Part shown: one piece after another, positions 11,287 to 63,781 of the stretch | Layout of the letters: every line of letters starts with the position of its first letter | How positions within the stretch are numbered: the stretch's first letter is position 1 | From: Clytia hemisphaerica | Lineage: Eukaryota; Cnidaria; Hydrozoa; Leptothecata; Clytiidae | Assembly: GCA_902728285.1 (NCBI GenBank) | Contig: CACVBU010000389.1 | Coordinates: 1-64,000 of the forward strand | Length of the DNA: 64,000 bases | Reading direction: 5' to 3' | Translations under genes and position numbers: made by a program | Notes under the pieces: model-generated | Seen by the model: the letters and a program-made list of their open reading frames with translations, nothing else | Databases searched by the model: none | Told to the model about the DNA's origin: nothing

Positions 11287-11951
11287 TACATGATATAAAG
11301 AAATTGTAATTGACAGCAGATGGCGTCTACTACAACCATTGTTATTCGAAAACATTCCATCATTCCATCATAATGTGAATTTACAATAGTATTGAAAACA
11401 TTTCACTTTTTCTTTTTAATGTAGTTTTTAAAAGTAGTGTAGTAATCGTATAATAGTGTGATAGTAAGCTAGTTTTCCTTTCATTCCCTGGAGTTCTGTA
11501 TCCAAAAGGAAATTAGACGAGTAGTGAATTGACAATTAGATTTTCCTTTGTGGAAAAGTTGATTTACATTTTTGTTGATTTTTTTGATAATCTCTATCAC
11601 TGTTCCTTTTAATAACTGTTGCTAGGTATTAACCCTTGACCTCTGGACGTCAGGATTGATTTAAATGTCATGTTTGACTTATGAAAAGCTTATAATGATT
11701 ATAAGCTATATAAAAAAAACACAAGATCTGTTAAACAGATCAAATATGTTTAACAGAAAAAAATCTACATAGTAACAAGTGTTTTACTACGGATTCTTAA
11801 TTTCGATTCTCTGATTTTTTAGAGAAAAGTAGAAAATACAAAGAAGAAGGAGAAAATAATTATTTAATGAGGTGAATGACTATTAGAGATACCACTCTCA
11901 CTTTATTTAATTTATTAAAACACACACAGCACAAGGCATTTAAGGAAAGGT

Positions 11952-14900
11952 ATGTCGTACCATCAATTACGTTCTGACGATCCAGATAACATGAGCGAGA
12001 TGACAGAACAGACTTCCTTTATAAATCCAGCTGATGCTATTGCAAACCAAATCTCCAAAAACATTGCACTGGACATAGGATCCAAATGGAAAGATTATAA
12101 CTCGAATAGGAGAATCGAGAAACACAAAGTAGACAGTCATCGAAAGGGACCAGCTCCCATTGAGGAAGCAGATGGCATGAAAAAAGGAGTCACCAAGGCC
12201 ACATATGGTACTCTTGATTCAGATGTAGAGGAACTCGAATTTGATGACATTGATACTCGACAAAATGCAGCATCAGACTCTAATCCATACAATAAAGTGA
12301 AACCTAAAACGAATGCTAAGGGTGACTCTTTAGCCAGTTGTCGAGCATTGATTGTTTATTTTTCAAAACTAGCCAAGAGTCGAGATGATGATGAGACTAT
12401 AGATATGAATTTTGTTGATTCGCTACTACAAAATGGTGCTGATATCAATTTCTCTGATAAACACGGCCAAACAGTAATGCATGAGATTTCAAGGGCGTGG
12501 CACCCTGATGTCGCCAAATTTGCAATCCAGCATGGTGCAGATGTAAACAAAGCAGATAAACACGGCAGGTCAGCTTTACATTTAGCGGCTGCTGTTGATT
12601 ATGATGATATGATTGAGTTTTTGGTACACAATGGAGGTGAGTTTTTTTAAATCTATTTGTTATCTTTTTGTTATCTTTCCCTCACTTTTTTGACATAAAA
12701 TCTAAAATAGACCCCTGAGAGCATTTGCTTTTTCACCAAATTTCACTGGACTTACCCTTTATGGAACAAGAGTTTGAAGACTGGCGCTTGAAGGGCTCTA
12801 GCTTCTTCAAATGGTTTTATTTTAGATTTTCTTTCTAATGATTTTACTAAAAAATTCTCTTTGCTTTTTTGTCTTGCTCTATTGCACACTTCATTTTGAA
12901 TGTCAGCTCAAGATAGCATAGTGTGTTTTCAGGTCATGAATAGTGTTTTAAATGAAAATATTACCACTTCACTTTCCACAGATCAACATCTGTAAATAAG
13001 ACCCTGTTTACATCATACAAAACAGGGAACTTTTTCTTTCCTCCATCATTAAAAAGATTAGTTAATTAGAGATCTTGATATAATGACTTGTAGGTTTTCA
13101 TTTTGTATAAATTATTTGGGAGTGCTGGTTGCTATGGTAGCTAATTAATCCTAGACCTTCTATTTTAACTAACTGACAATATTGCATAATATGTTTAGGT
13201 AGTTAACTTCTTTGCTTTGAACTATTTTCAGCAGATTTTACTCATTAAAAAATCAGACCTTAAAAAACTTTCTAATGCGGACCGAGCTAATTAAAAATCC
13301 TCAACATTCAGCTTTCCCCTAGCAGGCTAGCCCCTAGAATAAAAAAAATGTTCCCCCCCTCCCCATTCTATGTGGTATTCCTGATTCTTTCTTCTTTATT
13401 CGTGTCAATATATCACGGAACAACATGGACTATACCCCTTTTAACTTCAAAACAAATTTATAAAAGAAAAACAGCATCCATTGGCAACCCCTTTATTTTT
13501 CTTCACGATTATTTAATGACTAATCGTCTTTTTCAATTCCAGCCAACCTTGGTGCGAAAACGGTCGGTGAAAACCAAACTCCGATGCACTATGCAGCCAA
13601 GAACAATGCAGCAGCATCCTTGAAAATGATGTTAAGGCTCGGTGCACATATCAATGACCGTGATTACAAGAAGAGAACACCACTTTTTGTAGCTGCCGAA
13701 ACAGGTAGGTTACTGTTCCTATTCGCAAATTTTGTTGAATTCTTAAGTTTCTCAACAACCCTTCGCGATTCTTCATTTAAGGATTACGGTAATTTTACTA
13801 CTACTGTTAAATCTTTCAACTGCCTTATAAACCTTCGCTGGTATTAGCAGATTTTTAAAAGAGTCGAAATAGTGTAGTGGTTACCAACCAATGGCTTACG
13901 TAAAAAGGTCACGGTTCGTTTACACTTGGTACTATAATTCACTTGACAAGTGATAGCATGTACCTTTTTTCGGGTCAAACTACATGACATAAATGCCAGG
14001 CTTTTTGTCGACACTTATCAGGTTTTCGCCTTTGCTAGGAAAACAGCGTTTCTCTCCTACATGACAGAATAGAGTCATAAAATCATAAAATACGGCCTCA
14101 TTTTCAAGTAAAATATGGTTACTTGCTACCGAAATTTAATACATATTCCGAAAAGATTTTCATCAATTATGGTGAAGAAACACAAACGTCTTTTAAACGC
14201 TGTATTTGTAATGACGTGAACAGATTTTGCAACAAGGACGCTGAAAATGATTTCTTTCGATTTTTTCATCATGTAACACTTGAACATTTCTTTTTACCTT
14301 AGCTCGAGCTGAGGCAGCACGTTTTCTGATTGAGCAAGGCGCACCGGCTGGTGTTTACGATTCGAGTGGAACATCATGTTTGGCTCTCATGATCGAGAAA
14401 ATGCCGCACGTTGCCATTGAGGCGGCCGAACAGTTCCATTTGCTCGACCGCGCGTTCAGGAAGCATTATTACTACCTATCTTACATAGAACCAGATCCTC
14501 TCTTTCTTTTACCGCCTATACCGACCAGTAAACGTGAGCGGCGTGAACAAAAGGAGAACCAAAAGGAGGAGAAACGTTTGATGAAAGAGCAAGGAAAGAA
14601 AGCGAAGAAACGGGAAAAGACATACGCTAAAACACCACTAGAAGTAAGCATGGAGGATAGATTTTTTTTTGTTTTGATTAGTAACAGAAGGGATAATCAG
14701 ATGGTTGAGATTCATTCTCTTTTCTTGAGAAAAATATCTGAATCTTTTGTCAGATTATTTTCCAAAGTTGAAATATTCATGACTTTTTTTGTAATTACAA
14801 CGTAAAAACCATGCGTAAGACCCTTTTACGGTGACTTTTAATAATTATTCATCTCAAGTTTGGAAAATATTTAAAGGCCGGTCCATTTAGAGGATTTACT

Positions 14901-17900
14901 CGGGAATGCAGAAGGTTTCTGAGTCAAAAATCTCCAACGACCTGATTGTATCTAAGCTCTGGTTTAAACGGCCCACTTCTCGCCCTGCCTATTCTAATTT
15001 TGAATTACCGTGGGCATAAAGTGGGCTGTCTAAAGTCAATGCATTGCCCTCTTTTGACGTCAATGCAATGACTTCTTTCAATCTTTTTCAAGCGAAGATT
15101 TTAACTGCAAACTTTGTGCCTACTTTTTGCCTACTCTAACAATTAGAATAGGCAAGGCAAAGAGTCGGCCGTCTAAACTAGAGCTAAGCTTTTAGCATCA
15201 CTTATACAAAATCAAAAAAGAAAATTGATCACCGTAAGAAAGAAAGGGGTCAGATAATAGAAGTTCATACCTTATCGGGGAAAACTTCGTCGGGGAAAAG
15301 TGACGAAATTTTGGCCAAGTGACGAATATTTTCCCCAACGAATATTTTCCCCGGCCTTAATGCGTTTTCCAACTACCAGCAAGTGACGAATATTTTTCCC
15401 CGACGAATATTTTTCCCCGACGAAAATTTTCCCCGACGAAGTTTTCCCCGATAAGGTATCAGAAAATAAACTTTATCAATAACTTCTCTGTTCATTTCAA
15501 CAGGTCATCGTGCAATTCAACCAGTTGGATATGGTGATGCATCCAGTCTTCCAACGTCTACTACACGTCAAGTGGGGTTTGTTCGGAAAATTCGGCTCTC
15601 TCATCAATGTCTCTATCAATTTGGTTTACACGCTTATTTGGACTTTCCTTGGTATCTTTTTGCCCAAAGATCATGTGTAAGTTTGATTCAATTTTTAACA
15701 CTGAAAATTGTAAATTGGTTTGGTATTTATAACTGTCAATTAGAAAATGTTCTACCGTTTCCTAATAGAAGTATTACAAATGTTTAGCGAACAAGATGTT
15801 TTGACATTTTCGTTGCCGTTCTTGTAGATACTACACTCCAATGTCATCAATGTGGTGGCGATTGGTGCTTGAATTGATTGCTGTTAGTTTGACTTGCTAT
15901 TTTATTTACATGGTGAGTATAAAAGTCCGTTACTACTGGGTTCACTTTCTTACTCTATTCTATTCATGACTAGTTGTGATAGAGAAATTTTCCAGCGAAT
16001 TCTATGACGGCCACCCATTGCTCTGAATAAACACAGGCTCTCGCCTATTTGTAAATTTGAAAGCAATAAAACTAATGATAAGTTCGATGTGTAAAAGATT
16101 ACATCATGAATACCATGAACTCGAGTGAATTCATGGTGTAAATGGTGAAAATCTCTTTATGACTTTTAGGAAATATCTCAATTACGAATCACAGAGAAAG
16201 TGCACAATCGCTGGCGTCAATGGCGGACACGCCATGTCGAGAAAGATCTTCAGTATTGCCACGAGCGTTGGCCGGAGGAGAAAAAGTACCTGGAATCAGA
16301 GCTAGCCCAGATCCGGACCTTCCAGCGGACTTATTTCCGTGAGCCGTGGAATATTTTTGAATGGATTGCGTACTTCGTTGTTCTTACCCTGGTTCTAACG
16401 CGTATCCTTGCCGTCGCGATGAACGACCGCGTGGCCGAATCCATTCACCCGAGGATTTATTCGCTAGGCTTGATTGTTATTTGGTTGAGATTCATGAGAG
16501 CGTGTCGTGCGTTCAGAAGTTTGGGTCCTTTCATCTGTATCTTAGGTACGCCAAATTTGTTCAAAATATTCTTCTTTGACTGACACACGGGAGGTTTTTT
16601 TTTAGATAAAAAATCGTCCATGGGCAGTGTGGCAACCCGACCTACTTTTCCTCGTTACGGTAACCTACCCTATGTCTCCTTTTCAGGTTCTTCAATCTTA
16701 GTTTAATTATAAAATAATTTATACCTTAGACTGTCAACTTTTGAAAGGGGCTCCTTTTGACATGACATGATGTAAAGGATTATTGAGATTCGTTCTATGG
16801 AGCGTCCCCATATTGGAAGAGATGGTATGAACTGAAATATCTGAACAAGGAATCTGAAGAAGCTGTTTTATACCCTTAGTTTTTCCTCTTTTCTCAGGCT
16901 CTGTCATTGAAGACACGATGAAGTTTGCATTCCTGTTCTTTGAATTCTTCATTCCGTACACTGTTGGGTTCTGGATCATTTTTGGTGGACCAGAGAACCC
17001 GGGCACCGATTGGACTGAATTCAATGATCTCATCTATTCTGTCTGGGGTGTAAGTATCTGAATGATCTTATTCTTTGGTGGGGATTTAAACAAGTTATTT
17101 ACTTTTTGTCAGGAATTCTTTGTTGGTACAATTTTAGCCTCGCTCTTTATTGGTTAGACAATTTTATAACTTTAAGAGGTTTTGATTGAGTACACCTAAG
17201 TCAGCCATACTTTCAAGGAAGAGCTGCAGCGTAACTACGACGGTTTTTTTGTGAAAGTGATTTTTTTCTGGAAGTAAATAATAGTATTTTTTAAGAATTG
17301 AGAAGATAGTAGTCAAAGGGAACCAAGAATTAAAGCAATAAATGTTATCATAATCAATGGAAGAAAGCAGAGAGATAAAGTTTACAGAAACAATGCAAGA
17401 GAGAAGTTAACAGAGTGATGTAGGATGACCAGGTTTGTCAGCAGCATTATGACTTTTTTTTTATATTTCATAAAGTTTTTGCTATTGAGACATTCAAAAT
17501 TACGAATTAATAAATTAGTCTAGCATCAATCGACAAAGACTTTTATTAGTATTCATTTCAAAAGCTTTAAGTTTCCATCATCTCTTCATCTTTCAGATGA
17601 CCTTGATGGGTGACTTTGATTGGGACGGTTTGATCAAAGTTGACCGCTTGATGGCTCAAATCCTTTGCGGAACGTATTTCGCTCTTGCTGGTGTGGTCTG
17701 TATGAATCTCTACATTGCTTTGTTGTCAGGTAAGCCAGGAAAAAAATACACGTATTTTACAAGCATAAACTTCTTCAAGAAGATTTAAGAAAAGTAGAAA
17801 TAATCATTTTGACAGTATGAAGTATCATCTGCAGTATTTTTCGCCCCATTTTCTAGCACCCTTAAAATGTGTCATCATGTTCGGCTTTGAGCATAACTGA

Positions 17901-30200: not shown

Positions 30201-33188
30201 ACAAAAGTGCATCTATTTTATTTTGACTTTGTCTTAATTAATTTTCAAGTAAATGTTCTTGTATGATACTCGTTGGTAATGGAGATAGCACATTTAAAGT
30301 TGGCGACAAGCGAGAATCGTGTGTCATTCGAGATGAAGATTGGGGAGTGAAACACGCAGGTAATAGCAGTTGTTGGATTCCAACACACTAGGGATGTGTA
30401 GATGGATTTCTCCCAATTCACTACCTTTGACCAGTCAGTAGACAAGGATTCGCTTCAACTTCTAGCCAGTGGCAGTTGAGTCCTCGGATTTCACATTGAC
30501 CCGTAGCTCAATGGTAGAGCAAATACCCGTGAATGGCATGGTTGTGAGTTCGATCTTCGCCGGATCTGTTGGTTTTCCAATGGTTCTGGTGGCTGGTCAA
30601 AAGACAACATGAGAGCGACTGTATTCACTTAACCATTATTTAAAAGCTGGATCAGTCCAATAAAAATCTTGATAAAGCTGGGTTTCCATTCAACGAGCGA
30701 GCAGTGACTTCTTTGCCCCAAAATAAATACGTTTTTTGAGCAGTCTACTGGTCATCAGCTACACTAAAAACCAATCAAAGCTATTCTTTGAAAGTCTTAT
30801 AAAGTCAGCGCTATTCCCATGTGCTTTCGCCTTGTACTTGACCCATTTGATATAATGGATGACACTGTTTAATTCATTGTGGTTTCCAGAAATGTTTGTT
30901 GGGAAATCCCCCCCATATTTTTGAGACAGGGGTATACATTGAGTCTTTTAAAAGGCACATAGCATTGCAAGGATAGCACTTTTCAAGGCATTTTATAGCG
31001 AAAATGGGTCCTTAATGTTTTCTTCCATCAACTTTTTTCCCAAAGGGCCTCAACGTGAGGCTCTGAGTATGTTAAACCTTATAAAATTCCGCTTCCAACG
31101 GTACCAAGAAAGTTTACGCGGAATTTATTTCAAGGTCAACTTTTATTTCTGCCAGTCTGTAAGTCCATTTTTGTTGTTTTGAGAAAGTCGACTTTAAATA
31201 ATTCTTCCTTAAATCCTGAAAAACCATTAACATTTGAAATATTTTTGTGTTAAAAAAGCCTTGGGTCCATAATTGTTTCCACACTGGTTTTAATTCTTAT
31301 TTTTTTAAAGCTTAAAATTAGGCCACTTTAGGTTTGGTTTTTGATGGATTTAAGCCAAAAAGATGATAAAAATGGGTGTAAATCATCGGTATGGTCATAA
31401 CTCAATTTTCCAAAAAATGGACTTAAAGCTTTTTTATTTTGATGCGACAATATGTGCATCTTGGGAGGGAGCAAGAACTGAAATAAGAAAAACAATTTTT
31501 TCAACTATTTTAGAAGGCTTATCAGCTGACAGCCCAGGAATATCTTGCCAACAATTAAAACACCGACATCCGGAATATCAAAGTGGGTATTATTGGGTAT
31601 TCTATAAACAAGAATCTACTCAAGTGTTTTGTAAAATGACCGACAATGAGGGCTGGATGATGATCGGTCATTGGAAGTTGGATGCAAATAGCGATAACAA
31701 TGCAAATACGTATGATTTGATTAAAGCGTCTGCAGAAAACATGCCCTTGGATATCACGGAGAAAAACAGAGCGTATGGCTTGAGAACATTGAGCCGTTTT
31801 CATGTCGCAAATGAGTTGACAGAAATCCGAATAGTTTGTTCGAAACCATCCCACGGACGAAAGATCGATTTGATCATAAAGAATGAACGTTATTTCATGA
31901 AGTAAGTGTTAGTGTTCAAAACCTTTAAAAGATTTTTCGTCTAAAGGCCGGTCTCCACTATCGCGCGAAATGGGCGACATTTTTTTCCTTAAAGGCTCTG
32001 CTCATAGTGAAAAATCTATTTCCGAATTTGAAGATAAAACCTTATGTTTAAGAACAAACTTCTTTTGAAAAAATTAATTTAAGTAATTACATCATGAGTA
32101 ATTAAGGAATAAGTGTGGCATGGACCTTGATAAAACGTCATAACGACGCTATTCATATACTTTTCACAAAAAAAGCCTAATCTCCTTGAGGAAATCATTT
32201 TATTGTTTCAAACTGTTTTTAAGTTAATGACAAATAATTTCTTTATTTAGATTTTTTCGGAAAAATTTTCTATTTGGCTGCATCCCAAGTTATAGCTGTT
32301 TTCGTATGGAAATTTAGTGGAGAAAATTGCCAAAAATGAGGTTTTTTGGAGATTTTAAAAGAAATATACTTCTACAAAAATTTTCTGAAATTATATTTTT
32401 TAGATACTAAATAGATACATCACCTGAACCAAAAAAAATTCCAAAATGTTTGATTTTTACTGAGATTAGGGCTTTGAAAGGTGAAATACTCTTCTTCGAA
32501 AAACTCTTCGTTTTCTTCTTCATTCAATTTTTTCATTTCAACTTTTCGATTTTTAAATTTTAAAATAATAGGTTTAACAGGACATATAAAAAAGTTATAC
32601 ATTAATCTTTTTAAAATGCAGAAATTGCCATTTAGTTGGTCTAAAATCGAAAAATTCAACTTTTTTTTGGTTTGCCTGAAACTTTTTTATGATGTAATAT
32701 TTAGGCAAAAAAGGTTGAGAAAAAAAAAAGAAACCAATATGAACACACTCGAACGAAAATCATACCGGAGTGAAACGGAACAGTAACGTGTGAACATGGT
32801 CTTAAATAAGCGCTGATTGAAAATAGAGACAAAAAAGCAGACAAGCAACCCCTATTTTGCTTCACCCTCTTCAATATAACATTTACTACTGAATAATTTC
32901 ACATTTTTCTGTAGTTCATACACTGGAAACGGTATTAAGCAAATGTCGATGTGTTCTCCTAACACTGGTATATCACCCAACATTGTACGATTCCTGACCG
33001 ACGATACGTCACTAATGATGAGTACAAGTTGTTCATCATTAATAGTACAGGAACAAATTGGAAGCGTTTTTACATACCCTATTTTTGTTTATGGCGCATA
33101 TCATGTTAACGTTAACCAGGTAACCCGTTTTGAGTGCGATGATCATTTGGGAGAACAAATTGGTGAATGGTGGTTTTATATGCGCTAA
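24218..33188 (+). CDS. Secreted PAN/Apple and fibrinogen-like domain protein (449 aa in the six-exon form)
   Basis: Predicted secreted or surface protein, possibly a lectin-like or adhesion molecule. Six exons join in frame: 24218-24538, 24800-24890, 29060-29225, 30250-30359, 31514-31901, 32915-33188. The start gives a signal peptide (FVYLLTALVS). A first PAN/Apple-like module follows (ECLKSCM, VKCKSINFN, KSCELLG), then a Cys-rich linker (EICCAGGKRGPNCQN). A second PAN-like segment spans exons 3-4 (TSCHFAKLKFHSDEG, NCKKHC, KCSCMILV). Exon 5 starts a fibrinogen-like region (GISCQQLKHRHPEYQSGYYW, VFCKMTDNEGWMMIG). The last exon ends EWWFYMR. Extra exons in intron 2 (25744-26950) may also belong. 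The PAN call rests on Cys pattern only; ligand unknown. Confidence 0.75.
25236..25496. mobile_element. MITE with TGGGCTATTCC inverted ends, in intron 2 of the PAN gene
   Basis: TGGGCTATTCCATTTTT on the left is matched in inverse by ATTTTTTGGAATAGCCCA on the right. The interior is non-coding. Confidence 0.6.
25744..26950 (+). CDS. Probable additional PAN-like exons inside intron 2 of the gene above
   Basis: Two well-formed exons and one uncertain exon lie in the large intron. Exon 25744-25867 (AG before, GT after) completes a codon with the last base of exon 2 and reads LWCADKYHGLCHS and NQCFKACK. Exon 26775-26950 reads NYQTVWTACEANEILQGYEC and YYASCWILRKCLE, and ends in the phase that exon 3 at 29060 needs. 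Between them, 26620 onward reads FYPRKCNAASVFFWRFRQTC, which would complete a PAN Cys pattern, but I find no good donor linking it to the last exon in frame. The group enters and leaves in phase 1, so it could be included or skipped without breaking frame. Possible explanations: a missed splice site, an assembly indel or a decaying module. Confidence 0.55.
28351..28987. mobile_element. TA-flanked element with iterated CTCTAATTATTAGTACGA modules
   Basis: The ends CCGTCATTCTTCTAATTTAA and TTAAATTAGAAGAATGACAG are inverted with one mismatch, and TA flanks both sides (28349-28350, 28988-28989). Inside, seven variants of a CTCTAATTATTAGTACGA word occur in direct orientation, near 28376, 28428, 28471, 28503, 28837, 28868 and 28918. 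A minus open frame at 28626-28898 is low-complexity and not called. Confidence 0.75.
29367..29801. mobile_element. Pogo/Tigger-like non-autonomous element in PAN gene intron 3
   Basis: The left end CAGACTCTCACTTATTCGAA and right end TTCGAACTAGCGAGAGTCAG are inverted. The TTCGAA-rich end with a CAG start is the style known for pogo/Tigger relatives. TA precedes the left end; the right TA is changed. No transposase remains. Confidence 0.6.
30499..30571 (+). repeat. tRNA-like SINE head in PAN gene intron 4
   Basis: CCGTAGCTCAATGGTAGAGC is a very good A-box/D-arm, and GGTTGTGAGTTCGATCTTC gives the B box at the right distance. The acceptor strands do not pair, so it is more likely a SINE head than an active tRNA. 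Confidence 0.55.
32250..32760 (-). repeat. Dispersed repeat with fossil-like reading frame, copy 1 (minus)
   Basis: On the minus strand this reads VKPIILKF, then MKKLNEEENEEFFEEEYFTF. The copy at 34480-34960 on the plus strand reads VRPIIRES, then MKKFDEEENEDFCEEEYLNF. Flanking non-coding parts (a CCGAAAAATTT and AGCTGTTTT region) also match in inverted orientation. It lies in intron 5 of the PAN gene. Confidence 0.65.
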
Positions 33189-40292: not shown

Positions 40293-42053
40293 ATGTTTCC
40301 TTGGTCAACGGCAACTTCAATGTGTAAGAATTTTATTCATGTACCCTGTATTTAAATTTTTACCATAATCTCTCGTTTACTTTTAAGTTTAATTCATTTT
40401 ACCTTAAGGGAATAAATTAATGCGAGAATAAATTAATGCAGAATAAATTAATGCGCATTGGCCCTAATTCGCATTATTTAATTCCGCAATTCCTAACATT
40501 GGTCAATTCGCATTAATAAATTCCGCATTTTAAATAATTTTGCTGTGATTTTATCATGAATAAAGTTTAAAATGTGGCTCATTCGTATTAATTAATTCCG
40601 CAAAACATGAAATTTTTGAGGTGTCATTCGCATTAATTTATTCCGCATTAATTTATTCTCGCATTATTTTATTCCCTTTTTAGTCTTTTTTAGTGAAAAC
40701 GAGTGCATACTTTAGAGGACGGATTTTCTTTGGAAATTGAAAATATCTTTAACTTTTTCATCTTTCATTGAAGGTCATTCCAGTTGTTGTGATGACAAAC
40801 ACCTACATTCTCCGACATCAACATCCGTCATTGACGACGAATATTACTCCATGTGTCGTTCAAAACAACGTCGTAATCGCACAACTTTTACTAAGCAACA
40901 ATTAGAGGAATTAGAGCTTACCTTTCAACGTAAACATTATCCAGACATTAACACGCGTGAGGCTTTAGCAGAAAAAATTGGCATAACGGAAGCTAGAATA
41001 CAGGTAATCTTTTCATCGCTGAAATTTCTCAGAAAGTGTCATATGCATGTCTAAAGCAGATAAAACACCACCTTCTAGACTTTTCAGGAATAGTACCAAA
41101 ACTATATAGCTGTAAACTCTATGACCTGTTTGAAGTCTGAAATTCAAAAGGAAAAAAAACACAGAAATATTTCTAATCTTTGAAATACAGTGAAGTGAAA
41201 GGAAAGATCATTTTGATGTAAATTCTATTTCACTGTTTTATAGGTATGGTTTCAGAACCGACGAGCAAAATGGAGAAAACTTTCATCTGCTAAACAAAAA
41301 CTGATTCAAAAGAACGTTCAATTACGAACACATACCACAGAAAACAACTCTGATAAACCACCATGGTTTACTGGCATCCCAAGACCTCATAGTCTACAAA
41401 ACGAAAGCGAAAGACATCACCCTCATCCAGTCACTTTACTACCAAGATTGATCTCAGACGAGGTACTTTCTTCTAAACACGCTAGATATTCGGAACGTAT
41501 GCACACCCATTATCATTTCCGAGGACATCATGAACCCTCTTCAGCCGAGATCAGCCACGTTCGCGGGGCCAGAGACCATGAAAAGTATTTCTCACATTCA
41601 CCACCGCTTTTCATCAAACATCATCACCGCCATGCAAAGCTTCCATCTCCTCAACCATCCCCGTCATCCGATCGTGTTCATAGATCTCCCGATATCAAAT
41701 CCGAATCAGAAATAGAACACAGTCCTAAAAATCCAATTTTCTACCCGTTTTCAACTCGCCAATTAGCGTGCCCCTGTCGCTCTTGTTACTTAAAATACGT
41801 CGAATCAACGTACGCTGCTAATCATGAGAAATTCGATCGGCGGCACCGAGACACTGATGACGTCATACTTCGACGTGATGACGTCGCATCACGTCATCAT
41901 GATGACGTCACTTTTCTGAAAGACGAATTATGGAAGGAAAGAGAAGCAAAGAAAAGTCCGGCTTCTTCCATCTTTTCGAAAAGTCCGGACAATATTAAAA
42001 CAGAACCGATTGATCACCAGTCTTCTTTCGAAGGAAATGATAGTGTTGAATAA
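40293..42053 (+). CDS. PRD-like (Q50) homeobox transcription factor, 3 exons, 356 aa
   Basis: Nuclear DNA-binding transcription factor. Exons: 40293-40323 (ten codons plus one base), 40774-41003, 41244-42053; all introns GT-AG and frame continuous. The homeodomain covers residues 42-101 ([20 protein letters not shown] to [12 protein letters not shown]), with the expected R5, L16, F20, W48, F49, N51 and R53. Q50 marks a paired-like protein; no paired domain is encoded. The second intron falls exactly between homeodomain positions 46 and 47 (IQ/VW), the conserved PRD-class intron site. Downstream of the domain is [11 protein letters not shown], a His/Ser/Pro-rich tail, [12 protein letters not shown] and an Asp/His repeat stretch (DDV units). 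I cannot assign the family; the [20 protein letters not shown] stretch is not a perfect match to any family I can recall. Confidence 0.88.
40406..40678. mobile_element. Foldback MITE in homeobox intron 1
   Basis: AAGGGAATAAATTAATGCGA on the left mirrors GCATTATTTTATTCCCTT on the right. Further GAATAAATTAATGCG / CGCATTAATTTATTC units sit inside both arms, so each arm is itself iterated. It fills most of the 450-bp intron, ending about 95 bp before the exon 2 acceptor. Confidence 0.8.
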
Positions 42054-58290: not shown

Positions 58291-59298
58291 TTACGGGGAG
58301 GAATAAAGAAATAAAGAATAGAAAAAAAATGATAACGTACTTTTACCTTGCTTCCGAACACCGAGGAAGATCGTAAACTTCTCCCATTGAAATCGAATCA
58401 ATTTACTTGCGTGCCTATTATTATACAAGAAGATGAGGGCGTTGGCGCCCGCACTCAAACAAAAAAGGGCGTAACACCCTAAATGTGTAAATTGCATCCA
58501 CCAAGATAGACGGCGGCCACTTCGGTCTGACACGACGGCTTTGATGACGGTTGAACAGAAAAACGGGATTCTAAGCGGCAGCAGGGTACATAAAGTAGAC
58601 AACATGATTTTACGTAAAACTTTCTCTGAATATGCCGTATAATGCATCATGTAGCTTGAAACGGCTTTACGTCGTTTGGCAACAAGCTCTGTACGCCTGT
58701 ATATCAATACAACCAGCACGATTAAAAGAACGCCAATAAAAGTCTGGAAAATCTCTGTCTGTAGGTAAGCGTCGACATCCCCATTACTATCAGCTAACAA
58801 TGATATTAAAGACATTGATCCAGCTACGATAAAAGCCAACAAAAAAGCGATGTTGACTCGTGTATGGGTGATAATTTGCTTTACGCGTATCATGTGTCTT
58901 GTATGAATGTACCGGGAGATCGCTATAAGCACCACTAAACAAAGCGATAAATCAGCTAGAACAGATGATGAAAATTCCACTATAAGGTCAAAAGAGCATG
59001 GCAGTTCTGGATGGAAGATCTTTACAGCAAATAAAGTTTGTGCTGTGATGGCAAAACAACAATCACTCATACAAAGATAGACCAACAATGAAATAGAAGG
59101 TCTACGTTTGATTTGTTGCGACTTCACTAAAGCGTATATAGAGAGTACATTTGCACACAGATTGACGAAAAGGATGCTCAAATCAATAGCGATTAGGATT
59201 GCACGTTGTCCACTGGTGATGTCTAGTTTCCCAGTAGTGAATGCAGTTGTGCAAGGTGCTTTTGTCGTCTCGTTCCCAGTACTTGTATGATTTCCCAT
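58291..59298 (-). CDS. Rhodopsin-like (class A-type) 7TM receptor, orphan
   Basis: Predicted G-protein-coupled receptor of about 335 aa if unspliced. The start has a very good Kozak context (CCACCATGG), and the N-terminus carries N-glycosylation sites (NHTS, NETT). Seven hydrophobic segments are visible: TM1 (LFVNLCANVLSIYALV, N1.50), TM2 (LVYLCMSDCCFAI, D2.50), TM3 ending AISRYIHTRH where DRY is expected, TM4 without the usual Trp, TM5 (GVLLIVLVVLIYRR), TM6 (LCTLLPLRIPFF) and TM7 (SAGANALIFLYNN) where NPxxY is expected. A good donor (CAAG/GTAAAAG) at 58347/58346 means the last about 18 codons may be intron, with the true tail in a further exon I could not find. Ligand unknown. Confidence 0.8.
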   Translation of the reverse strand: MGNHTSTGNETTKAPCTTAFTTGKLDITSGQRAILIAIDLSILFVNLCANVLSIYALVKSQQIKRRPSISLLVYLCMSDCCFAITAQTLFAVKIFHPELPCSFDLIVEFSSSVLADLSLCLVVLIAISRYIHTRHMIRVKQIITHTRVNIAFLLAFIVAGSMSLISLLADSNGDVDAYLQTEIFQTFIGVLLIVLVVLIYRRTELVAKRRKAVSSYMMHYTAYSEKVLRKIMLSTLCTLLPLRIPFFCSTVIKAVVSDRSGRRLSWWMQFTHLGCYALFCLSAGANALIFLYNNRHASKLIRFQWEKFTIFLGVRKQGKSTLSFFFYSLFLYSSP

Positions 59299-61075: not shown

Positions 61076-61417
61076 CCCGGGGGGGGCACTGGGTTTGCGG
61101 ACTGACGGTATATGCGGGCCAAAAATTGGCTTTAAAATTGCACCCTTACAGTGCAGCAAAAATCAGTGAAAATCATACCCTTAGAGTGCATTTTCCCCCA
61201 AATTTTCGATCCCTTTTGTGCAAAAAAATGGTCAAAATTCTAGCATTCTTGGTCAAAATACCTAGATTTTTCAAGAATTTTCTGAAATTTCTACCCTTAC
61301 AGTGCATCTCTAGTTTTTCCGACCCTTACAGTGCATTTTAAACATATTGGAAAAGGTACCCTTAACACCCGCACAAGCCCGTTGGTCCTTTTGCCCAGCT
61401 GCCCCCCCCCCCTCCGG
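61076..61417. mobile_element. G-run-ended MITE with CCCTTACAGTGCA array and 9-bp target duplication
   Basis: GACAAAAAG flanks both sides (61067-61075, 61418-61426). The left end is CCCGGGGGGGGCACTGGG; the right end is a C-run then CTCCGG. Inside, five variants of CACCCTTACAGTGCA are spaced about 40-60 bp. The design matches 56632-56992 although the repeated word differs. Confidence 0.8.
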
Positions 61418-61441: not shown

Positions 61442-61514
61442 CCAGCTGGCACACAACGTTGTTCGACGTTGGAAACGTTAGATAAACGTCGAAAAAACTT
61501 TGTGTGCCAGCTGG
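61442..61514. repeat. Small hairpin CCAGCTGGCACACAA
   Basis: CCAGCTGGCACACAA and TTGTGTGCCAGCTGG close a 73-bp foldback unit with AACGTT words inside. It lies just downstream (3') of the minus-strand gene. Confidence 0.75.
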
Positions 61515-61624: not shown

Positions 61625-63781
61625 TTACAACTCAGTTTTAGGTTGGTGTATTTCATGCTCACTTAGAAAACCAAGTGCGCCCTTCCTGACGCCCACATCG
61701 GGCGCCATATCTTTCTCAATAAATGGACATCTAATTTTCCCAAACTCTCCCTTATTTCCATCCCCAAGCTCTTCCCATTGCCATGACAACATCTCACAAA
61801 TGACGTCATGTCTAGTAAATGGTGTCGCTGCCGGTTCTTTCGAACATTGAACGAACGGTATTGGAGTAGCTAACGAATGGCATCCATGCTCTTGCGATAA
61901 TAATTCACTTCGTGCAGCTTGCACACCGTGCATTACAAAGTCCTTATCGATCTTCTTTTCGTCTGTGTAGGATAAATGTTTCTCTAATGTTTTCAAACAT
62001 TTCTGATCAGCTTCTGATCGTTTGCAAGCCTTATAAGGTTTTGGACAGCAGCATAAAAAGACGTTTTCTTGATCCTGTAGAACAGTCAAAGGGTTTGTGT
62101 CTTCACAGATTTTCTCTAATTCGTCCAAGAAACAGCCTGATTGTTGCCAATAAGGACATTTTCGTCGGTCAGTGTATGAAGCGATTCGATAGAGTTGAGG
62201 AGACGTATCTGTTAAAGCTGAAAAGAAGAAGCATCTGGTTGTGAGTTTGTTGAGCTCTTAAGTGAGTCTGGGTTGCTGGGCTACTGAGGCAGCACTCTAA
62301 TAGTTATGAATGTGATAAAACATCTTCCTTTTGTAATTTCAGCAAATAAGCAATAAACTTGTATTATAAAGTAAATTTAAGTATTTCGGGCTTATTCAAG
62401 GAACTCTTAACAAAGCATTTTTTTGGAAATTGCACCACATATTTACAAAATACTGAAAATTAGTAACATTTTCAAGCTTAAGACCCCAAAATTCAAGGAC
62501 AATTCAAAGACAAAGACTTCAAATGTTTCTTGGCGAAATTACATAGAAACAAAACGTTGAATAGCTTAGATACCTGCTTCTTCTTCCTCTCTATCGTTAA
62601 CGGGATGCAAGATTCGTTCGCTTGCATCGTCTTCATTCGAGGCTCGATATTTCCTTTTGAAAGGACACTTCGCTTCGAGCATCTCACCTTGATTGTCTAT
62701 ACCTAGTTCTTCATAAATCCAATATAGCTGTTCACATTGATGCTGCAAAGAGATGAACAGTTATCAGTGAAGAACTGAACATAAAAATAAAGTCTTTGAA
62801 CAATAAAAGTTTGAAGCAAGTTCCTTATTTGAAGTAAAGTGACAATTTATCAAAAAAACTTTTGAGATTATTTGCTGACTTTTTCAGAAATTTTTCGAAA
62901 TTGTATGAGGTCAGTAGTTTTTTTAGGAATGATTAAAAAAGATTATGGTTTTCGGCTGACAGGAAGAATATTCTTAGATCTTCTTATTACAATTAACAAA
63001 AACATAGTATACTAACCTGTTGCAGTTTAAACGGTGGTATCCCATTATTATCGCATTGCACTGGTTTTCTTGTCGAAAGATATTTTCCACAATTCTCATC
63101 TTGTTTTAATAGCTCCCGTCTAACATCGTTAAAAGCTTTTAAGGTCATTGCATAAGTTTTTTTCTCGTGGTCAACTTTGTCCATTACTTGTGCGAAAATG
63201 TCCACACATCTTTCATCTTTGTCTAATTCCCGGCATTCCTTGAACGGTTCTGGGCAGCAACAATGTTCTGATTGTATTAACAAATGTAGTTTAGCTTGTC
63301 CAAAATCTTCAGGGTTTTCATAGAAGTCGCACACGTTTTCGAGGATGGTTAAAAAACAACCCGATTGTTGGAAGTACGGACATTTTCGTCGGTTTTTGTA
63401 TGAACCAATTACCGGTGACTTCTTTCCTATAAAGAAAAAAATTTTGATTTAAAATGTGCTGAACTTTTTAGCAGTTGCAATCCACTCACGCGAAGACTGT
63501 TTGTTTGTTTATTAATGGGCGGTGATGGGCGGCAGGCGCTAAAGAATTCTCAAATTCTTCAGCTATTTTGAAGGAGAAAAATATTAAAAAGGGAGCGCTT
63601 ACAGTGAGAGTTCGTTTGTCGTTGTCTTAGTGGAGAAGCCGATGTTACAGCCTAAAAATGCGATTTTTCGTCCTAAAAATCACAATATCAAGTGCAAATC
63701 TGATATACCTTTTTTGCATTCCACACAACAGTGTTGCATCAGTAGTACTGCCAACAAAAATAACAAACCCAAAACCCTCAT
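61625..63781 (-). CDS. Secreted protein with two copies of an unrecognised cysteine-rich domain (4 exons, 414 aa)
   Basis: I do not recognise the family. Exons on the minus strand: 63781-63709, 63426-63017, 62742-62574, 62217-61625; all introns GT-AG, frame continuous. Exon 1 is a signal peptide (MRVLGLLFLLAVLLMQHCCV). Two modules of about 185 aa follow. Each begins RRKCPY(F/W)QQSGCFL, then has CCCPEPFKEC or CCCPKPYKAC, then RRELLKQDENC or RSELLSQEHGC, PVQC or FVQC, and closes with YEELGIDNQGEM / WEELGDGNKGEF and a KCPF or RCPF. Introns around module 1 are both phase 1, so the domain can move as a unit. An extra phase-0 intron splits module 1 only (LQQ/HQCEQ). Probably disulphide-rich and extracellular. 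No transmembrane segment after the signal. Function unknown. Confidence 0.8.

Follow-up and report, generated by a model that had tools for sequence, protein, structure and literature searches.

A tandemly duplicated twelve-cysteine module in a Clytia hemisphaerica protein with a candidate endoplasmic reticulum retrieval tail

Gene structure and coding status

The window analysed here, a 64,000-nt stretch of Clytia hemisphaerica DNA (contig CACVBU010000389.1, positions 1 to 64,000), contains 13 open frames of at least 130 aa, two of which belong to a predicted four-exon gene on the minus strand at 63781-61625 (Table 1). Its coding sequence of 1245 nt encodes a protein of 414 aa. The coordinates, the strand and the four exons and three introns proposed in the initial annotation of this DNA were confirmed at the sequence level, and all three introns are of the GT...AG type. 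Exon 1 is required, because the frame of exon 2 lacks a Met upstream of the module. At the other end, the AATAAA found ~80 nt past the stop suggests that the KTEL end is probably the true C-terminus.

Table 1. Predicted features of the duplicated-module gene (window positions)
Feature	Position	Strand	Description
Exon 1	63709..63781	-	Start codon (ATG) and signal peptide, MRVLGLLFLLAVLLMQHCCVEC/KK... with a guessed cleavage site; phase 1 at end
Exon 1 product	63781-63709	-	Translation: MRVLGLLFLLAVLLMQHCCVECKK
Intron 1	63427..63708	-	282 nt, GTATAT...TTTATAG, phase 1
Exon 2	63017..63426	-	Module 1, first 10 of 12 conserved Cys (up to PVQC)
Intron 2	62743..63016	-	274 nt, phase 0, within module 1 only
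Exon 3	62574..62742	-	Rest of module 1 with its last 2 Cys (CEQLYW...KCPF), then an acidic linker; phase 1 at end
Intron 3	62218..62573	-	356 nt, phase 1
Exon 4	61625..62217	-	Complete module 2 with its 12 Cys, followed by the C-terminal tail (KTEL-stop at its end)
KTEL codons and TAA stop	61625..61639	-	Candidate KDEL-type ER-retrieval signal
AATAAA	61540..61545	-	Possible poly(A) signal, ~80 nt beyond stop

Open frames alone are not decisive, since long frames also arise in Markov sequences: when 300 sequences of 4 kb each were drawn from a first-order Markov model, 19 had a longest stop-to-stop frame of at least 151 aa, and one had a frame of at least 210 aa. Coding status was therefore judged from the alignment of the two homologous frames rather than from frame length. 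The spliced frame contains no internal stop, and its splice sites are intact. We take the gene to be real, and it was found at one locus only.

Two copies of a twelve-cysteine module

The protein contains two modules which align with 36% identity over 168 aa (BLASTP, 2e-34); their local alignment score is 280, and 1000 shuffled versions of module 2 scored 60 at most. Each module has 12 cysteine residues, and all 12 occupy the same aligned columns. Both copies also contain RRKCPYF/WQQSGCFL, CCCPE/KPF/YKE/AC, PVQC or FVQC, and KCPF or RCPF, and RRELLKQDENC in one copy matches RSELLSQEHGC in the other. Thus, every motif listed in the initial annotation is present in both copies, and the tandem duplication that it proposed is borne out by the alignment. 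The copies had been described as ~185 aa long with phase-1 borders; there are indeed two copies, but their homologous core is ~165 aa, and the module borders are in phase 1 whereas the intron inside module 1 is in phase 0.

Among the 181 aligned module codons, differences number 84, 67 and 115 at positions 1, 2 and 3, respectively, and the excess at third positions fits purifying selection. Where the two modules have the same residue, the third base is shared in 7 of 22 fourfold codons (0.28 expected from base composition) and in 24 of 44 twofold codons. Synonymous divergence between the modules is close to saturation, which indicates that the tandem duplication is old, with the protein sequence kept while silent sites were randomised. 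The same fourfold agreement, close to expectation, argues against recent gene conversion between the modules overall.

Intron 2 is present in only one of the two copies, as had been claimed when its gain or loss was proposed. It lies at a length-neutral site (PFKLQQ|HQCE in module 1 and PFTRHDVICE in module 2), and the equal length of the copies at this site implies a clean gain or loss of the intron. When the intron 2 sequence was searched against the genome, it returned only itself, which gives no indication of an introner-like source.

Searches for related proteins

Neither the whole protein nor either module matched any Pfam-A family above cut-off, using a threshold of E 10 at which HMMER filters nevertheless drop most matches above 0.1. 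The best match below the cut-off was COX5A (PF02284; cut-off 24 bits), with 18.7 bits (E 0.0019) for the whole protein and 21.2 bits (E 3e-4) for one stretch of module 1; module 2 matched nothing in Pfam-A, COX5A included. Weaker matches were to DUF501 (whole protein, E 0.012) and Mad3_BUB1_I. COX5A is mitochondrial and carries no secretory signal, and this genome has a COX5A gene on another contig, where it scores 147.6 bits. For these reasons the resemblance was taken as chance or compositional, and identity with COX5A was rejected. NCBIfam gave nothing above cut-off and one irrelevant match (E 0.2), and no PDB sequence was matched at E <= 10 by the protein or by a two-row profile of the modules. 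The Pfam profile search, named in the initial annotation as a check, thus returned no strong match, and the suggestion of an undescribed family holds within what was compared, namely Pfam-A, NCBIfam, the PDB sequences and one scan each of prokaryotic and viral contigs. In the open-licence literature we found no description of this protein, and the sole match to a motif string was irrelevant.

Protein searches of the genome itself (417,433,876 bases in 951 contigs) with both modules and two sub-pieces revealed no second locus; these were exon-by-exon readings in which the best first-look candidates were scored, and very diverged paralogues may be missed. A match on contig C566 was rejected as a relative (E 2.1, with an internal stop), being at chance level. 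One scan of prokaryotic contigs and one of viral contigs gave 63 and 39 stretches, respectively, that matched the peptide pattern, and no relative was confirmed in either. An origin by exon shuffling had been proposed for the module, and its phase-1 borders would allow this; however, the module was found by protein searches in no other gene of this genome, which leaves exon shuffling without support.

Predicted fold and cysteine chemistry

Two AlphaFold runs with three rows each gave mainly helical models of low confidence (mean pLDDT 36.1 and 41.1). For the second model, none of 32 Foldseek matches reached E <= 0.001; the best was at 1.1, and, the model being unreliable, these matches were treated as noise. 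The 12 conserved cysteines would allow up to six disulfides in each module. CXXC is absent from both modules, the only such sequence being a CVEC near the expected signal-peptide cleavage site, and CXXS occurs only as CKRS in module 2, where module 1 has CREL. The lack of a CXXC pair in either module makes a thioredoxin-type foldase unlikely, and, as there is also no Pfam thioredoxin match, membership in the protein disulfide isomerase or thioredoxin families was rejected.

Signal peptide, C-terminal tail and location

Kyte-Doolittle hydropathy with a 19-residue window peaks at 2.11 at residue 3 and does not exceed 0.41 from residue 31 on. By hydropathy, then, the signal peptide reported in the initial annotation is matched by a signal-peptide-like start, and the absence of any later membrane-spanning segment is as in a soluble protein. 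The predicted protein has a pI of 5.7 and contains 24 cysteines after residue 22, and no N-glycosylation sequon (NxS/T) occurs in its 414 aa.

The spliced frame ends in HQPKTEL-stop, a KDEL-like tetrapeptide. Given the composition of the protein, the chance of a C-terminal [KRHQ][DENQTSVA]EL is 8.7e-4, and that of exact KTEL is 3e-5. The strict KDEL-type pattern, [KRHQSA][DENQ]EL, does not cover KTEL. KTEL is the tail of two proteins described elsewhere. In PMC4940162, the KTEL of AGR2 is called an ER-retention motif, and binding to KDELR1 and, to a lesser extent, to KDELR2 and KDELR3 is cited; the same source also describes AGR2 with KTEL as secreted, and reports that altering or removing the KTEL had no specific effect on secretion in a HEK-293T assay. 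The AGR2 KTEL is mentioned in PMC12328878 as well, and PMC4619674 gives KTEL as the ER-retention tail of POGLUT1. Like AGR2, the protein studied here ends in KTEL and would be soluble and part of the secretory pathway, and like POGLUT1 (Rumi, KTELC1) it has a signal peptide together with this tail. The domains differ: that of AGR2 is thioredoxin-like, with CXXS, and that of POGLUT1 is a CAP10 domain, whereas our protein has two cysteine-rich modules and no Pfam match to thioredoxin or CAP10. In the C. hemisphaerica genome, no KDEL-like tail could be assigned downstream of the CAP10-domain and calreticulin-family exons, whose last exons are unplaced.

The KTEL end, together with the report of this tail in AGR2 and POGLUT1, makes ER residence likelier than secretion, and we consider that the protein is probably located in the ER. 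The mismatch of KTEL with the strict pattern, the secretion of AGR2 and the HEK-293T result count against this, as does the lack of an assignable KDEL-like tail near the CAP10-domain and calreticulin-family exons. The initial annotation had regarded the protein as secreted and extracellular, which the same tail renders doubtful. If the protein were nonetheless secreted, it would be an extracellular protein of the matrix, mucus, perisarc or nematocyst capsule, with two disulfide-rich modules and a coincidental KTEL. The signal peptide and the 24 cysteines accord with such a protein, and cnidarians commonly have secreted proteins that are rich in cysteine. However, a tail of the general motif would arise by composition in only about 1 in 1000 cases, the N-glycosylation sequon is absent, and the weak Pfam matches include no extracellular domain; we therefore regard a secreted protein as possible but rather unlikely. 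A signal peptide with many cysteines should not be equated with secretion until the last four residues have been checked.

Possible role and alternative interpretations

With our confidence evenly divided, we propose from the sequence features that the gene encodes a soluble, disulfide-rich and mainly helical protein of the ER lumen, internally duplicated, which helps fold or assemble cargo. Its ER location is moderately supported, and its activity is what we infer. In the scheme we have in mind, the signal peptide would be cleaved and two disulfide-stabilised domains, mainly helical as modelled, would then form; the KDEL receptor would fetch the protein back via KTEL. In the early secretory pathway it would most likely act non-catalytically, binding secreted cargo or helping to assemble it in the manner of a chaperone, with one site per module. 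Homology searches of Pfam-A, NCBIfam and PDB sequences found no backing for a chaperone role. If the tail works, the ER would harbour a resident protein whose 12-cysteine module has no Pfam match above cut-off and none among the sequences of solved structures.

A reading which is compatible with ER residence, although unlikely in our estimation, is that the protein belongs to a known family of helical cysteine-rich proteins but has diverged so far that profile searches do not see it. Candidates are the Frizzled/folate-receptor CRD superfamily, the GDNF-receptor/GAS1 repeats, the N-terminal domains of leprecan/CRTAP, and the canopy/saposin-like proteins. The helices predicted at low confidence point in this direction, as does the C-x6-C-x8-C run of the module, in which we presume a general likeness to CRD patterns. 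Against this, the Frizzled/folate-receptor CRD, GDNF-receptor/GAS1, leprecan and canopy families each have a Pfam model and none was matched at a threshold of E 10, nor did the PDB sequences or the Foldseek search of the unreliable model (0 of 32 at E <= 0.001) provide a relative.

A more specific form of the ER-lumen proposal, which we think improbable, is that the protein represents a lineage-restricted (hydrozoan or cnidarian) family of ER-resident assembly factors whose disulfide-rich helical fold would be new, and which would serve cnidarian secretory cargo such as minicollagens and other nematocyst proteins or fibrillar collagens. The capsules and matrices that cnidarians assemble in the secretory pathway are heavily disulfide-linked; to our knowledge, little is known of lineage-specific ER helpers for their assembly. 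Finally, a non-functional gene, whether made of chance frames or a pseudogene, is very hard to credit: a frame as long as that of exon 4 did occur in one of the 300 random 4-kb sequences, but here two homologous open frames conserve 12 of 12 cysteines, with divergence mostly at third positions, intact splice sites and no internal stops.

Neighbouring sequences and the mitochondrial contig

Just downstream of the gene, at 61442-61514, lies a near-palindromic element of 73 nt with 22-nt arms that are 91% complementary. It has at least 67 matches in the genome (40 of 453 candidates scored), many of which are the two strands of one place, and it is a short dispersed inverted-repeat element. Also downstream, at 61131-61336, four short direct repeats are clustered around ACCCTTACAGTGCA.

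A Pfam scan of nine other frames in the window gave matches at E <= 0.01 for four. A 331-aa frame at 58300-59292 (minus strand) resembles a rhodopsin-type GPCR (7tm_1, 30.2 bits; cut-off 30.5), and a frame in the plus-strand stretch 31357-31905 matches part of the fibrillar collagen C-terminal domain (COLFI, 27 bits; cut-off 26.2). At 11922-16583 (plus strand), one frame has ankyrin repeats and another an ion-transport domain (23.9 bits; cut-off 25); the two perhaps belong to one TRP-type channel gene. The plus-strand frame at 41244-42050 has no Pfam match for its fragment, and we take its start to be the end of a homeodomain. A borderline tRNA-Ser (anticodon tga) was found at 30496-30569 (plus strand) by ARAGORN; its Rfam score, 29.2 bits, is just above the gathering score (29). 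None of the surrounding frames bears clearly on the duplicated-module gene.

Elsewhere in the genome, contig C900 (14,551 bases) is a mitochondrial chromosome. Its genes, which were named from their reading frames except that cox1 alone was found by a family search, are arranged in one direction as cox2, atp8, atp6, cox3, nad2, nad5, nad6, nad3, nad4L, nad1, nad4, cob and cox1. No polB or ORF314 frame was recognised among the reading frames. As described in PMC3519871, hydroidolinan hydrozoans are without polB and ORF314 and have a duplicated cox1 at the chromosome ends; C900 likewise has a partial cox1 at one end, as in the linear hydroidolinan mtDNA of that account. These features make a hydroidolinan hydrozoan a likely source of the contig, although the family search for cox1 gave one match only. 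A family search for GFP gave no match in this genome, nor in the control genomes. In the cox1 frame, TGA occurs at three codons and stands for Trp.
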